Assembly: GCA_021734475.1 (NCBI GenBank)
Contig: JAIPIU010000006.1
Coordinates: forward strand, 1-64,000
Direction of reading: 5' to 3'
DNA from: Candidatus Altimarinota bacterium
GTDB lineage: Bacteria > Patescibacteriota > Gracilibacteria > Absconditabacterales > Absconditicoccaceae
DNA: 64,000 bases
Below, piece by piece: positions 9,601 through 63,866 of the stretch. Positions within the stretch are counted from its first letter, which is position 1, and every line of letters begins with the position of its first letter. The notes under the pieces were generated by a model. The model did no database searches and was not told where the DNA came from. It saw only the letters and a program-made list of their open reading frames with translations. Made by a program: the position numbers and the translations under genes.

Positions 9601-10584
9601 TTAAAGTTTAAATCCTATTTTTTTATATATTTCCTCTATTTTTTTATTCGAAATTTCATTTACAATTTTAGCATTTTTTTCTAATAGATCCAAAACTTCT
9701 TTATCAGAAATTTGATTATATTTTTCTTGTATAGGCTTCAAAAAAGTTATTATTTTCTCATATAGATAATCTTTTACTTCTTTGTAACTAAGTCATCCTG
9801 TCTCATATCTATTTCTAATTTCTTGATTTTCTTTATCATTCAAAAATAATTTTAGTATTTTGTAAACATTACATTCGTCAGGATTTTTGGATTCTTCAAC
9901 TGTCTGAGTACTAGTAGGAATCTGTTTTACTCTTTTCAAAACAGTTTTTTCATCATCCAATAATCAAATATAATTATTATAAGATTTACTCATTTTACGA
10001 CCGTCTGTTCATGGAACAACCGAAACCTCATCTCTAATATAAACACCTGGAACCTTAAAAGTTTCTCAATATTGATTATTAAACTTTTGAGCGATATCTC
10101 TAGCATATTCTACATGTTGTTTTTGATCTCTTCATACAGGCACAAGATCAGCATCATAAAGTAATATATCACTAGCCATCAATATTGGATAACAAAATGT
10201 TCCTACTCAAATCTCTCATGCCTTTCATTTTGTTAAAGCATCTTTATAACTATGCATTCTTTCCATAGTTCACATAATAGTCAAACATGTAAGTACCCAA
10301 GTCAATTGTGCATGACCAGCTATATCAGCTGGATTATATATAATAAATTTATTTGGATCTGCTCCACAGGCAAGGAAAAGTTTCAAAGAGTTCATTACGT
10401 TTGTTTTCAAAACATTTCAATCATGTATTCATGTATAGGTATGCATTATAGCTGTAAATAAAAATATTTCTGCATCCTCAAATTCATTAGACAAATCCAA
10501 CATAGATTTGATAGATCCAAAATAATTACCAATATGCAATTGATCACTCGTAGCTTGCAATCAAGTTAAAATTCTTTTTTTCAT
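9601..10584 (-). CDS. trpS: Tryptophanyl-tRNA synthetase
   Basis: Charges tRNA-Trp. The 327-residue class I synthetase opens KKRILTGLQATSDQLHIGNYFG (HIGN form of HIGH at about residue 17). [32 protein letters not shown] follows, then GRKMSKS near residue 190. The length is typical. It matters here because CGA appears to be a Trp codon: this enzyme would have to charge a tRNA-Trp reading CGA as well as the usual tRNA-Trp(CCA). The bacterial enzyme normally reads anticodon bases. No tRNA-Trp gene is in the window. Confidence 0.93.
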
Positions 10585-18940: not shown

Positions 18941-18941
18941 T

Positions 18942-19013
18942 GGTCCGGTCGTTTAGTGGATAGGACACAATCCTGCGAAGATTGTAACCCCGGTTCGACT
19001 CCGGGTCGGGCCA
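18942..19013 (+). tRNA. tRNA-Arg, anticodon GCG
   Basis: A full cloverleaf folds by eye. The acceptor GGTCCGG pairs with TCGGGCC (two G-T pairs) and the D-stem GTTT with GGAC. The anticodon stem is CAATC/GATTG with loop CTGCGAA, giving anticodon GCG at 34-36. The variable loop is TAAC, the T-stem CCCGG/CCGGG with loop TTCGACT, and the discriminator A. CCA is not encoded. Most bacteria decode CGN with tRNA-Arg(ACG), whose A34 becomes inosine and reads CGU/CGC/CGA. A G34 tRNA reads only CGU and CGC, which agrees with CGA having left the arginine set here. Confidence 0.93.
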
Positions 19014-19103
19014 AATTAATAAAATTTTAAGTCCAAAAATTTGCAATATTTCTAAAAAGAATTATAATTTCGAATGTATATTTTAAAAAATAAAACCAAA
19101 TAA

Positions 19104-26807: not shown

Positions 26808-27674
26808 ATGATTCATACTGTAAGTAAAGAAAATTCTGATTATTTATTACAAGATCAAAATCTACAAAGCTGAGATAACCATATAAGCTGAGAACTTTTT
26901 GATAATCTTGATCGAAAAGAAAAAATGGAGTTAGAAAAAAAACAATGAGATATACATAAATTACGAGAAGTTTTTTCATATTTCTTTGAAACAGATGGTT
27001 TATGAAATTATTGTTGTTATACAAAAAATCCAAAACAATGCAGTGATTGATCAGATTTATATAGCATTATAAAACACAACTGACAAGATATGATAATCAA
27101 AGTATGAGCATGAGAATTCAATACAGACGTATTCAATACATGATGAGTAAAAGAATTAAAATGATTTTATAACACACCTATACCATTATTTGTAGTAAAT
27201 CAATCAGATTGATATCTTGCTGATGAACATACTAAACAACTAAGAGATAATGATCCAAAAGAATATTTAAATGAACATGCAGTTATAATAATCCCCAAAT
27301 GATGAAAAGCCTATATTCGTTGATATAAAGATAGAAAAAATCAAATAAATTTTGGTGATATAAACATTAAAGATTATGAAAACACTATTGCTGAATGAAG
27401 ACTAGCAATACTTCAAAAAGAATTTCCAAATTGACAATTCCAAGAATGTTTAAAAATTATAGAAAAATTTCAAGAAATGGATTTCGAAAAATTTTATAAT
27501 ACAGTACGAAAAAATAATCAATATCTAGATGAAAGTCAAAATAAATTATTATGATGTTTTCGAAATATGTGAGTTTATAGAGTCTGAAGCTGAGTATGAG
27601 ACACAAAAGCATATCAATCTCTATACGATTTAATACAAAGCTTCAATCTAGCAAATCAAACATTTATAAAATAA
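26808..27674 (+). CDS. Hypothetical protein in the pyk-RuBisCO block, 288 aa
   Basis: I do not recognise this 288-residue protein. It is cytoplasmic in appearance. An N-terminal charged helix (FDNLDRKEKMELEKKQGDIHKLREVF) precedes a mixed domain with GLGNYCCYTKNPKQCSDGSDLYSIIK (four Cys, possibly metal-binding), IIIPKGGKAYIRGYKD, and a C-terminal helical part (FPNGQFQECLKIIEKFQEMDFEKFY). It lies 16 bases after pyk and 7 bases before the R15P isomerase gene, so it is very likely co-transcribed. Any link to nucleotide carbon flow is guilt by association only. Confidence 0.65.
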
Positions 27675-27681
27675 AAACAAA

Positions 27682-28695
27682 ATGGCTAAATATCAAAACA
27701 TTACAAAAAACATAAACGATGATTTATTAAAACTAAATAATGTTTTTGAAATAGCCAAAGATATCAAATCAATCAGTATCCAATGAGCAACTAATATTGC
27801 TAGAGAATGAATAAAAATATTATGAATAGAAATATCTAAACAAAAATTCTGATCATTAAAAGAATTAGAAAAATTTCTTTTTACAGCAAGTAGTATGCTA
27901 TCACAAGCCAGAGAAACCGAACCAATGCTATTTAATTGATTAACATACTGTAAACAAAAATATTATGAGAGATTAAAAAAAACAAATAATATAAAAACAT
28001 TACAAGATACAATAAGTAAAGCAGCAAAAGATTATGTAGAAGAAATACAAAAAGAAGAAAAAATTAGACCAATTATTTGAGAAAAAACTATAAAATCAAA
28101 ATATAATATAATGACTCACTGTCATTCATGATCAGTAATAAAAATACTAACAACAGCATGGAGTAATTGAAAAGAAATACACGTATACAATACAGAGACA
28201 AGGCCTCTCTATCAGTGAAGAAAAACATCTAATGATTTGGTAAATGCATGAGTTCCAAATACTATGATTACAGATTCTTCTGCACCATTTTTTACAGACA
28301 ATATACATGAATCACATGTAAATATAGATATGGTAATCATATGATCTGATGCAATCAAATTAAATGGAAGTGTGTATAATAAAATCTGAAGTTTTTCAAT
28401 AGCTTTAGCAGCCCGACACAGCAAAATACCTGTTTATATTGTATGATCATTACTAAAAATAGATACAGAAAATACAGTAAAAATAGAAGTTAGAGATGGT
28501 AAAGAACTTCGACCCGATAGACCACAATGATTAGAAATCATAAATTATGCTTTTGATATGGTACCAGCAAAGTTTATTACATGAATAATTACAGAATTTG
28601 GTATAATTAAACCAAAAGATTTAAAAAAAGCCATCAAAAAACACTATCCACGAATGTTAACAAAATCAAAAAATTGACAAAAAAATAGAAACTAA
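27682..28695 (+). CDS. Ribose-1,5-bisphosphate isomerase (eIF-2B alpha-like family)
   Basis: Converts ribose-1,5-bisphosphate to ribulose-1,5-bisphosphate in the archaeal-type AMP pathway. The 337-residue protein has an N-terminal helical domain and the eIF2B-like catalytic core: IMTHCHSGSVIKIL (catalytic Cys), ETRPLYQGRKTS, MVIIGSDAIKLNG (catalytic Asp), RPQGLEIINYAFDMVPAKFI and GIITEFGI. These distinguish it within the eIF2B/MtnA family, and the neighbours (RuBisCO, AMP phosphorylase) complete the pathway. CGA in GKELxPD is consistent with Trp. Confidence 0.88.
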
Positions 28696-28734
28696 TTAAA
28701 CTTAAATATAACTTTATAATTAAAATATTACAAA

Positions 28735-29166
28735 ATGTTAAAACCAGATACAAAAGAATTCCTTTGAGAAGTTAAATCAGATATAAAAGAATTTTGAAGA
28801 AAATTCTTAGACAAATTAACAGGAAAAGAAAAAGCTGAAAAAGAAAAATATAGAGAAGAGTTTTACCAAGATTTAAAATCGTTGTCATATGAACAAAAGG
28901 AGTTTTTTATTTGAGTAATAAATTATGCCAAAGAAGATTGACGAGATTTTTCAATAACTACTACTGTAAATGAAAATCGACCCGAAGATTATAATAAAAT
29001 TATGAAAATTTTTTGATGATTATCACAATCATTTTTATTAGATTATAATAAGGTAATAGAAATATTAAATAAAGAAAAATATAATAAGCCAAGTGAAGAT
29101 GAAATAAACTACGAAAATTTAAAAAAACAGAATGAATTAGAAAATTTAAAAAATAAATTAAACTAA
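28735..29166 (+). CDS. Hypothetical protein in the RuBisCO block, 143 aa
   Basis: I do not recognise this protein. It is 143 residues, highly charged and predicted all-helical, with an N-terminal amphipathic stretch (LGEVKSDIKEFGRKFLDKLTGKEKAEKEKYREEFY) and a C-terminal Lys/Asn/Glu coiled-coil-like tail. No signal or membrane segment. It sits between the R15P isomerase (39-base gap) and rbcL (41-base gap), so it may be an accessory of that pathway or a passenger. Confidence 0.6.
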
Positions 29167-29207
29167 AATAAATTACAAATCTTTTAAATCTTTAAAATTA
29201 AAACAAA

Positions 29208-30668
29208 ATGACAATTCAAGAACTTATCCAAACTTTAAATCCGCATCAAGCGGCTTATATCAATATGGATCTCAAAGATCCAAAAAATTGAGATTATATG
29301 CTAGCTTGTTTTCATCTTATTCCTGGTTGAAAATTAAACATTTTACAGGCTGCATGTGAAGCATCTGCAGAATCTAGTACATGAACAAATTTTCTTGTAC
29401 AAACAGAAACTACATATTCCAAACTTTTAAATGCACTAGTTTACAAACTTGATTTAGAAAAAAATCTAGTATGGATTGCATATCCACGAAGATTATTCGA
29501 TAGATGATGAAATGTTCAGAATATTTTAACATATATAGCTGGTAATGTTTTTTGAATGAAAGAAGTTAGTGCTCTTAAACTAATAGATGTGCGATTTCCA
29601 CCAGCAATGTTGGAACAATATGATTGACCAAGTTATACTCTAGATGATATGAGAAAATATTTAAACGTATACGACAGACCAATATTGGGAACAATAGTAA
29701 AACCAAAAATGTGATTAACTTCTGCAGAATATGCAGAGGTAGCATATGATTTCCGAGTATGAGGTTGAGATTTTGTAAAAAACGACGAACCACAAGCTGA
29801 TCAAGATTTCTGTCCTTATGATAAAATGGTAAACCATATCAAAGAAGCTATGGAAAAAGCAGTCAAAGAAACATGAAACAAAAAAGTTCATTCATTTAAT
29901 GTATCAGCTCCAGATTATGATACAATGATTTCTAGATGTGAAATGATAGTAAATTCATGAATGGAAAAATGATCATATGCTTTTCTAATCGATTGAACAA
30001 CAGCTTGATGGATGGCAGTACAGACACTTAGAAGAAAATATCCTGACGTATTTATACATTTTCATAGAGCATGACATGGCGCTTTCACAAGACCAGAAAA
30101 TCCAATATGATACTCAGTATTAGTGTTGTCCAAATTTGCAAGATTAGCTGGAGCATCAGGCATACATACATGAACAGCTTGAGTAGGTAAAATGGCTTGA
30201 ACACCTCAAGAAGATGTAACAGCTGCTCATAATATATTTTGATTACAAGAACCATGACATATTTTTGAACAATCACGATGAACAATACCTGAAAATGATA
30301 AAGATCGAATAAAAAACGTACAAGAAGATCATCATCAACATGTAACTCTAGATGATGATTCTCGAAGATGATTAAAAAAATGCTGTCCCATAATATCATG
30401 AGGACTAAATCCTACATTACTCAAACCATTTATGGATATAATGTGAAATTCAGACTTTATCACAACAATGTGAGCTGGTTGTCATGCTCATCCATGATGA
30501 ACAAAAAGATGAGCTACTGCTCTAGTGCAATCATGTGAAGCACATAAACAATGAATAGATATTCACGAATATGCAAAAGATCATCCAGAATTAGCTGAAG
30601 CTATCGAATTTTTTGAAAAAAAAGAAAATAAAGAAGTCAGACATGCGGCTAGAAGAGAATCTAACTAA
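29208..30668 (+). CDS. rbcL: Ribulose-1,5-bisphosphate carboxylase, form II/III type
   Basis: Adds CO2 to ribulose-1,5-bisphosphate, giving two 3-phosphoglycerates. The 486-residue subunit has the catalytic Lys in GTIVKPKMGL, the carbamylation triad GGDFVKNDEPQ (K, D, E), HFHRAGHGAFTR, loop 6 GVGKMAGTPQ and PIISGGLNP. An extra stretch of about 30 residues before PIISGG (IPENDKDRIKNVQEDHHQH) is as expected for form II/III enzymes. With CGA read as Trp, form II tryptophans line up (DFWVGGGDF at 29754, QSWG at 30276). No phosphoribulokinase or small subunit is near, so it serves nucleotide salvage, not the Calvin cycle. Confidence 0.95.
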
Positions 30669-30717
30669 TCTTTACTTTAATATAACATTGAAACATTTTA
30701 ACATTTAAACAATATTT

Positions 30718-32223
30718 ATGTCCGAAGTATTTCACGCAAAAACAAAATTAATCGACATCAAAGATTGAGAAGAATTGATAGTAATTCTAAACGAACAAGA
30801 AGCTCGAGAATATGGTATCAGTTCTACAGACAAAGTATCTATATTTTATAAATGAAAAGAAATAGTACTAAATGCCGATCTTTCAAAGAATCTTGTTAAA
30901 CCAAGAGAAATTTGACTATTCAAGGATGTTTCTGAAAAATATAAAATCAAAGCAAATGAAATAGTTTGAATATCATTCACCAAAACAGATTGAGACGCAT
31001 TAGATGCACTAAAAAAATGAATAAAAGGAGGAAAATTAAATCAAAAAGATATTCATTCTATTATGAAAGATATTTCAGATAATCGTTTTACAGATACTCT
31101 ATTAACCTATTTTTCTGCTCTATGATTTTTCAAAAAAACTCCTGATAAAGAATTATATCGAATGACCAAGGCTATGGCAGAAACATGAGAAATGCTACAT
31201 TTTGATTGAATAGTAGCCGATAAACATTGTATGTGATGAGTACCAGGAAATGAAACAACTATGATCATGATTCCTCTACTTGCATCTCTATGAATCAAAA
31301 TGCCAAAAACATTTTCCAAATCTATAACTACTCCAGCAGCTACCGGTGAATGTGTAGATGTTTTAATGGATATATCATTTAGCAAAAAAGAAATTGAAAA
31401 TTTAGTTAAAAAAGAAAACTGTTGTTTAGTTCGATGATGATGATTGGATTTGGCACCAGCTGATGAAAAGCTTATCAAAGTTGCATATCCTTTATCCATG
31501 CAATCATTTTCAAGAACAGTTATTAGTATCATGGCAAAGAAGTACGCTATTGGAATAAATCATTCTCTAATAGATATCCCAGTATGACCAACAGCCAAAG
31601 TGGTAGATAGAAAAACCGCATTACGATTAAAAAAGAAATATGAATATGTATGAAAAAAACTCTGAATGAAAATGATAGTTGAGATTACTGACGCACAAGA
31701 ACCTATCTGAGCATGAATTTGACCTCATCTTCAAGTTAGAGAAGTACTTAGAGTTCTTCAACAACATGAGCTTAGACCTATGGATCTTCAAAACAAAGCA
31801 ATTCATTTATGTTCAAAAGTTATAGAACTTGTTTGAATGGCAAAATGAAAAAAAGCATATGAAATGGCTTATGCTCAATTAAAATCTTGAGCAGCTTGGA
31901 AAAAAATGCAAAGAATTATCAAAGCACAAAGATGAAAAAACCCAAATATTAAATCTGAAGATCTACAATTATGAAAATTTAAAAAAGAAGTAAAAGCAGA
32001 AAAAGCTTGAACAATAAAAAAAATAGATCTGAAATTAATAAACAGCACAACTAGAACATTATGATCTCCTATCGATGAAAAAGCATGACTTTATCTTCAC
32101 AAAAAACTTTGAGATAAGGTAAAAGAAAACGATATTATATATACAATGTATGCTAGTGAAAAATCAAAAATTGATATGGCACTAGATGGATTAAAATGAA
32201 AAAAAATGTACGAAATTAAATAA
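30718..32223 (+). CDS. AMP phosphorylase (archaeal-type thymidine phosphorylase family)
   Basis: Phosphorolyses AMP (or other NMPs) to the base and ribose-1,5-bisphosphate. The 501-residue length and the extra N-terminal domain of about 80 residues (FHAKTKLIDIKDGEELIVILNEQEA) mark the AMP phosphorylase subgroup, not ordinary thymidine phosphorylase. Motifs: DGDALDALKKGIKGGKL, GGVPGNETTMIMIPL, SKSITTPAATGECVDVL, and a CLVWGGGLDLAPADEK block in which Trp is coded by CGA (31432). It follows rbcL by 49 bases. A terminator-like hairpin pair follows. Confidence 0.93.
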
Positions 32224-36963: not shown

Positions 36964-38538
36964 ATGACGAAAAAATTCTTAGTAACTACACCTATTTACT
37001 ATCCCAATGGATATCCGCATATTTGACATGCTTATGCAAGTTTTATAGCTGATTTTTATGCAAGATACAAAAGGGTTTTATGATATGATGTAAAATTTTC
37101 TACTTGAAACGATGAAAATAGTCAAAAAATAGTACAACAAGCAGAAACTGAGTGAAAAGATATAATGCAATATTTGGATGAAATGGGTTCAAAACGAGAA
37201 CAAGTTTGGACAGATCTACAAATAACTTACACTGATTTTATCAGAACTACACAATCTAATCATAAATCACTTGTACAAAAAATGCTACAAAAGTCTTTTG
37301 ATAAATGAGACATATATGAATGAGAATATAAATGATACTATTGTATATGATGTGAATGATTCAAAACAGAAAAAGATTTGATAGAAAAAGATGGTGAAAT
37401 AGTATGTCCAGATCATCTAAAAAAGCCTGACTTAATAACAGAGAAAAATCGATTTTTTAAATTAAAAAATTATTCAGATAGGCTCAAAAAATTTTATGAA
37501 GATAATCCTAATTTTGTAGTACCAAATTATAGATTCAATGAAGTAAAATCATTTGTAAATTGATGATTGGAAGATTTTTCTGTATCTAGAGAAACAAACA
37601 AATTCTGAATACCATTACCATTTGATGATAAACAAGTAACATATGTACGATATGATGCCCTATTCAACTATGTAACTGTCTGCGAAAAAGATTGATTCCG
37701 AAATAATGACACAGAAGTAGTACATATACTTGGTAAAGATATAAGTAGATTTCATGCAATATTTTGGCCAGCAATGCTTATGAGCACAGAAATTAAATTA
37801 CCAAATAAAGAATATATTACATGATGGTTTACTGTCGATGGACAAAAAATGAGTAAATCATTGTGAAATGTCGTAGACCCAGTAGAAGTAGTAAATAAAT
37901 ATGATAGAGATGCTGTTATTTTCAATCTTTTATATGACGTACCTATTTGATCAGATTGAGATTTTTCAGAAGAAAGACTAAAAAATGTTTATGAAAGTAT
38001 GCTCATCTGAGGACGATGAAATCTTGTGAATAGAGTTACAAGCTTATGTGCTAAATATTGAATCAAAGAATGAAAAATGAATAAATCAAATTTAGAAGAA
38101 TTCAAAGATGAAGATAATAAATTAATAAACCTTTTTGAAACAGGATTTGACTGACATTACATAGAAAAAAATTATTTAGAAAAATCTGATATTCAATGAT
38201 ATTTACAAGATCGATATAGTTTAGTCCAAAATTCAAATGAATTTATAACAAAATCTGAGCCACGAAAAAAATATAAAGATGAAAATACAAAAGATGAAGC
38301 TATTTCAGATTTACAATTTCTTTTGTATATAGTTAAACAATTAGCACTATTATCAGCTCCAATACTAGTAAATTGATTCAAATGAATACAAGAAATCTTT
38401 GGTAATGAAGAATTAAATAAAATTGATACATCAAAAAATATTGATAATCCTTATCTATTCAAAGAGATATTTGATTTAGATACTTTCTCTGTAAACCTAA
38501 ATCCACAAATAATATATATTCAAACGCCAAAAAAATAA
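36964..38538 (+). CDS. metG: Methionyl-tRNA synthetase
   Basis: The 524-residue class I synthetase has [15 protein letters not shown], the zinc knuckle CIGCEGF...CPDH, and [21 protein letters not shown] is in [16 protein letters not shown] near residue 300. The C-terminal anticodon-binding helices follow, with no C-terminal tRNA-binding domain. It is the clearest witness for CGA=Trp: the invariant YVWxDAL is written YV-CGA-YDAL (37648), and CGA also falls at aromatic positions in EKNxFFKL and KxEQVW. TGG is used for Trp at IFWPAM, so both codons coexist. Confidence 0.95.

Positions 38539-60161: not shown

Positions 60162-63866
<3,705 letters not shown>

Follow-up and report, generated by a model that had tools for sequence, protein, structure and literature searches.

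The 64,000-nucleotide stretch of DNA analyzed here (the window) contains a tRNA-Arg gene whose anticodon is GCG rather than ACG, and the same genome appears to have moved CGA away from arginine. An earlier note on this DNA took the GCG anticodon to be the change required to end the insertion of arginine at CGA, and hence to be independent support for the reassignment and an account of how the codon was freed. The locus therefore raises the question of whether tRNA-Arg(GCG) caused the codon change or was there before it.

An arginine tRNA with GCG and the tRNA set around it

18942..19013, plus strand: tRNA-Arg(GCG), the sole tRNA for CGU/CGC in the genome (ARAGORN; Rfam RF00005, 51 bits; A20 and A73 read from the sequence)
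18975..18977, plus strand: anticodon GCG (G34 C35 G36) in the loop CTGCGAA (ARAGORN and direct reading)
9601..10584, minus strand: trpS, the only tryptophanyl-tRNA synthetase gene found in the genome (TIGR00233, Pfam PF00579)
G000:C1:81926-81996: tRNA(UCG) (Rfam and ARAGORN)
G000:C4:111115-111186: tRNA(CCG) (Rfam and ARAGORN)

ARAGORN called tRNA-Arg(gcg) at 18941-19014 on the plus strand, and Rfam RF00005 matched 18942-19013 at 51 bits against a gathering score of 29 (E 3e-10), both in agreement with the earlier note's reading of a GCG anticodon in place of ACG. Direct reading of the gene showed a paired acceptor stem, a 7-base loop CTGCGAA on a 5-bp anticodon stem (CAATC/GATTG), A20 at position 18960, and A73. 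Both A20 and A73 belong to the arginine identity elements, which allow either A or G at position 73. The gene is intact, and its product is a canonical tRNA above the Rfam cut-off that carries arginine identity elements. The statement that this tRNA folds well held for the covariance model and not for folding energy, which was unremarkable for the composition (z -0.76); the good fold therefore rests on the covariance model. Together these features point to a normal arginine tRNA that would read CGU by G:U wobble and CGC by Watson-Crick pairing, with no need for TadA.

The assembly comprises 1.17 Mb in 8 contigs, with 41 tRNAs above the Rfam cut-off, and the regions around these were run through ARAGORN. 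No A34 tRNA of any kind, including tRNA-Arg(ACG), was found among the 41 tRNAs of the whole assembly, which is 96.7% complete and so leaves a small chance that a tRNA-Arg(ACG) or a tadA gene lies outside it. The CGN box is served by three tRNAs, one each with GCG, UCG, and CCG. Both a lack of tRNA-Arg(ACG) and the presence of a tRNA(UCG) had been anticipated. The search for a second tRNA-Arg with ACG or UCG returned no ACG, and the sole UCG tRNA is of the tryptophan type: tRNA(UCG) has G1:U72 and tRNA(CCG) has A1:U72, both have G73 by computation, as does tRNA-Trp(CCA), and in both D-loops, read by eye, no A follows the GG (no A20 seen). With G73, a weak 1:72 pair, and no A20, both tRNAs classify as tryptophan-type by published identity rules (Shulgina and Eddy, 2021; PMC8629427), and from these elements they would be expected to be charged with tryptophan.

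The trpS product matched TIGR00233 with 272 bits (cut-off 176.75; C5:9610-10584), the single match in the genome. Its nearest relatives are UBA6263 (85%), followed by candidate division SR1 records including RAAC1_SR1_1, and the organism is therefore an Absconditabacteria/SR1 bacterium. This single TrpRS would have to accept three anticodons (CCA, UCG, and CCG) with nothing in common but C35.

The expectation that tadA would be lacking was likewise borne out. A profile search of the genome for TadA gave only a below-cut-off match, C4:170834-171142, rejected as TadA at 176 bits to guanine deaminase 1tiy (B. subtilis-type) versus 80 bits to TadA 1wwr. This guanine deaminase gene (L042 1489-1959), the genome's best TadA look-alike, has CGA where AIYWA has its conserved Trp. 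TadA scored above cut-off in three of 30 genomes tested (G043, G073, and G092), which had been chosen for the test because they carry tRNA-Arg(ACG) with the loop CTACGAA; its presence matched that of tRNA-Arg(ACG) exactly, in the three ACG bearers and in none of the rest. Hence ACG and TadA go together, and both are absent in the SR1 genome studied. Like the bacterial tRNA-Arg(ICG)/TadA system, the SR1 genome serves CGU and CGC. Unlike that system, which is recognized by A34 in the tRNA gene and the TadA enzyme, it has neither, and its tRNA-Arg(GCG) is not a predicted reader of CGA.

Meaning of CGA and CGU

29208..30668, plus strand: Rubisco gene with 6 CGA codons (alignment to the three best PDB homologues)
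30718..32223, plus strand: thymidine/AMP phosphorylase gene, with CGA as the codon at the CLVWGG tryptophan
36964..38538, plus strand: MetRS gene, with CGA at two motif tryptophans, those of YVW(Y/F/I)DAL and (S/Q/T)-x-P-W
60162..63866, minus strand: rpoB, CGT columns aligned to homologues

Proteins encoded in the window were aligned with solved homologues with CGA masked. In Rubisco, each of the three best PDB homologues has Trp at the same four of the six CGA columns; of the other two columns, one is Trp/Trp/Tyr and one is variable, and none of the six is Arg. Conserved Trp columns also receive CGA in MetRS, thymidine phosphorylase, and guanine deaminase, while the remaining MetRS CGA codons fall in variable or unaligned columns. 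Counting CGA as Trp yields a tryptophan content of approximately 1.1%, a normal level. The claim in the earlier note that CGA has been reassigned is thus upheld, with tryptophan as the new meaning. One might argue instead that CGA is still arginine and that tRNA(UCG) is tryptophan-like only in its looks, and one GatB column, among CGA columns in that protein that are mostly variable, does lie at Arg/Thr/Trp-variable positions. The Rubisco columns, the motif tryptophans of the other three proteins, and the normal tryptophan content all speak against this, and we give it virtually no credence.

For CGU, four of six CGT codons in the aligned stretch of RpoB lie at Arg in both homologues shown, and CGU is therefore still arginine; this agrees with the predicted charging of tRNA-Arg(GCG) with arginine. 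The alignments indicate that CGA specifies tryptophan and CGU arginine in this genome, and CGG would also be read as tryptophan. rpoB and rpoC contain no CGA codon at all. The Rubisco gene is part of an AMP-salvage Rubisco pathway cluster on the plus strand (window 26808-32223), with ribose 1,5-bisphosphate isomerase-like and AMP/thymidine phosphorylase genes.

Both the reassignment of CGA/CGG to Trp in Absconditabacteria (SR1) and the CPR-wide use of GCG in place of ACG have already been reported (Shulgina and Eddy, eLife 2021; PMC8629427). The genome studied here resembles the published SR1 code (UGA as Gly, CGA/CGG as Trp) in its use of UGA as a sense codon throughout, its CGA codons at Trp columns, its tryptophan-type tRNA(UCG) and tRNA(CCG), and its SR1 lineage by TrpRS (PMC8629427).

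GCG among relatives with an ordinary CGA

CPR bacteria appear to be without tRNA-Arg(ACG), using tRNA-Arg(GCG) for CGU/CGC and tRNA(UCG) with tRNA(CCG) for CGA and CGG (PMC8629427). Among 117 sampled Patescibacteria/CPR genomes, an anticodon-loop pattern for GCG had matches in 71 and one for ACG in 7, the patterns being strict enough to leave at least 39 of the 117 unclassified. Of the seven ACG-pattern genomes, G113 and G126 match the GCG pattern as well and yielded no tRNA-Arg(ACG) with ARAGORN, which brings the real ACG count closer to five than to seven. Within the SR1 genome's own family, most genomes gave GCG and not one gave ACG when a second pattern was applied. GCG instead of ACG is hence the usual state of Patescibacteria/CPR, with or without a genetic-code change.

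Relatives in the same class also have GCG, and their UCG tRNAs, with A73 and a GGATAG D-loop, are arginine-type. The two tRNAs were seen together directly in one case (L067), and combining two separate tRNA surveys placed them together in five further genomes (G036, G042, G051, G052, and G054). Since GCG is shared with relatives that have an arginine-type tRNA(UCG), it is older than the CGA change and independent of it. A genome of the SR1 genome's family (G029) was considered as an intermediate with an arginine-type tRNA(UCG) (L074, contig C58) and set aside as a likely contaminant; the same contig holds a second tRNA-Arg(UCU) dissimilar to the one that G029 shares with its congener G021, which suggested the contamination. 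In G021 (L061, L269), sampled ORFs with 1210 codons contained no CGN codon and used UGA 64 times.

These comparisons bear directly on the proposal that a change from ACG to GCG in the SR1 lineage ended the insertion of arginine at CGA and so freed the codon. It is true that G34 cannot pair with A3 and that the genome has neither an ACG tRNA nor TadA. GCG is, however, common in relatives without the reassignment, where an arginine-type tRNA(UCG) serves CGA; ACG was therefore lost long before the reassignment and CGA was not left unread, and we regard the proposal as highly improbable. For the same reason GCG can be neither the change that was needed to stop arginine at CGA nor independent support for its reassignment, and it does not show how the codon was freed. 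All of the predictions that had been tied to GCG came true, but for other reasons.

The family's GCG tRNA could conceivably have been rebuilt from another tRNA, such as the UCU isoacceptor or tRNA-Glu, near the time of the reassignment. The tRNA-Arg(GCG) genes of the family and of other CPR are alike in anticodon, arginine identity elements, the lack of ACG and TadA, and CGU/CGC use (PMC8629427). They differ in that the family copies (L044-L063) carry CTGCGAA as the anticodon loop and mostly four bases in the variable loop, where the rest of the phylum has TTGCGGA and five bases; these differences would fit a rebuilt gene, as would the 65% identity of the window's tRNA-Arg(GCG) to tRNA-Glu(UUC). 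On the other hand, the mean identity between GCG and UCU tRNAs in the family (0.63) is not above that between the GCG tRNAs of other CPR and the UCU tRNAs of the class (0.67), and 72 bases carry little signal. Derivation from tRNA-Glu or tRNA-Arg(UCU) found no support, and we consider rebuilding unlikely.

Codon choice and the order of events

A codon count over 596 ORFs, drawn from 864 kb of genome sequence (L211-L250), gave 1199 CGA, 1190 UGG, 646 CGU, 131 CGC, and 96 CGG; two CGG codons occur in the window's ORFs. The ratio of CGA to UGG was 691:358 in genes with a C-rich coding strand and 508:832 in those with a G-rich one, a contrast (Fisher p ~2e-42) to be read as a strong trend given that genes are not independent. 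In the window alone, the ratios for the two strand classes were 96:25 and 10:43. With two G in UGG against a single G and a single C in CGA, synonymous Trp codons may follow the mutation bias of the strand. CGA makes up 54 per 10,000 ORF codons here, compared with fewer than 37 per 10,000 in Pfam columns in the published SR1 survey, two figures with different denominators (PMC8629427). The change of CGA to Trp is probably more advanced than in that survey, with CGA a co-dominant Trp codon genome-wide and the choice between CGA and UGG set largely by strand mutational bias. Two small points are additions to the published account: CGA and UGG are equally common in this SR1 genome, and the choice between them tracks strand GC skew.

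We consider it very likely (probability about 0.95) that tRNA-Arg(GCG) is a standard CPR inheritance from ancestors with an ordinary CGA and not the cause of the reassignment, and that CGA and CGG became tryptophan codons via the tryptophan-type tRNA(UCG) and tRNA(CCG). The order of events would thus place GCG before the code change. In an ancestor without inosine decoding, CGA and CGG would have depended on tRNA(UCG) and tRNA(CCG), and low GC content may have made both codons rare. Both tRNAs could then have become tryptophan-type, shifting the two codons together, with tRNA-Arg(GCG) kept as the arginine tRNA for CGU/CGC and the single TrpRS presumably charging tRNA(CCA), tRNA(UCG), and tRNA(CCG). 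Because CGA was earlier read by tRNA-Arg(UCG), the decisive change would be that of UCG/CCG from arginine-type to tryptophan-type. GCG was permissive at most, in that with an ICG tRNA reading CGA, an altered tRNA(UCG) would not by itself have been enough to move that codon.

tRNA-Arg(GCG) is hence an ordinary feature whose context is already published. A causal step that did not hold thereby drops out: inosine decoding was already lost in the ancestry of the phylum, and its loss cannot serve as independent evidence for the code change. Without ICG, both CGA and CGG depend on tRNA(UCG), which helps to explain why the two codons moved jointly, an argument already made in the earlier survey (PMC8629427).
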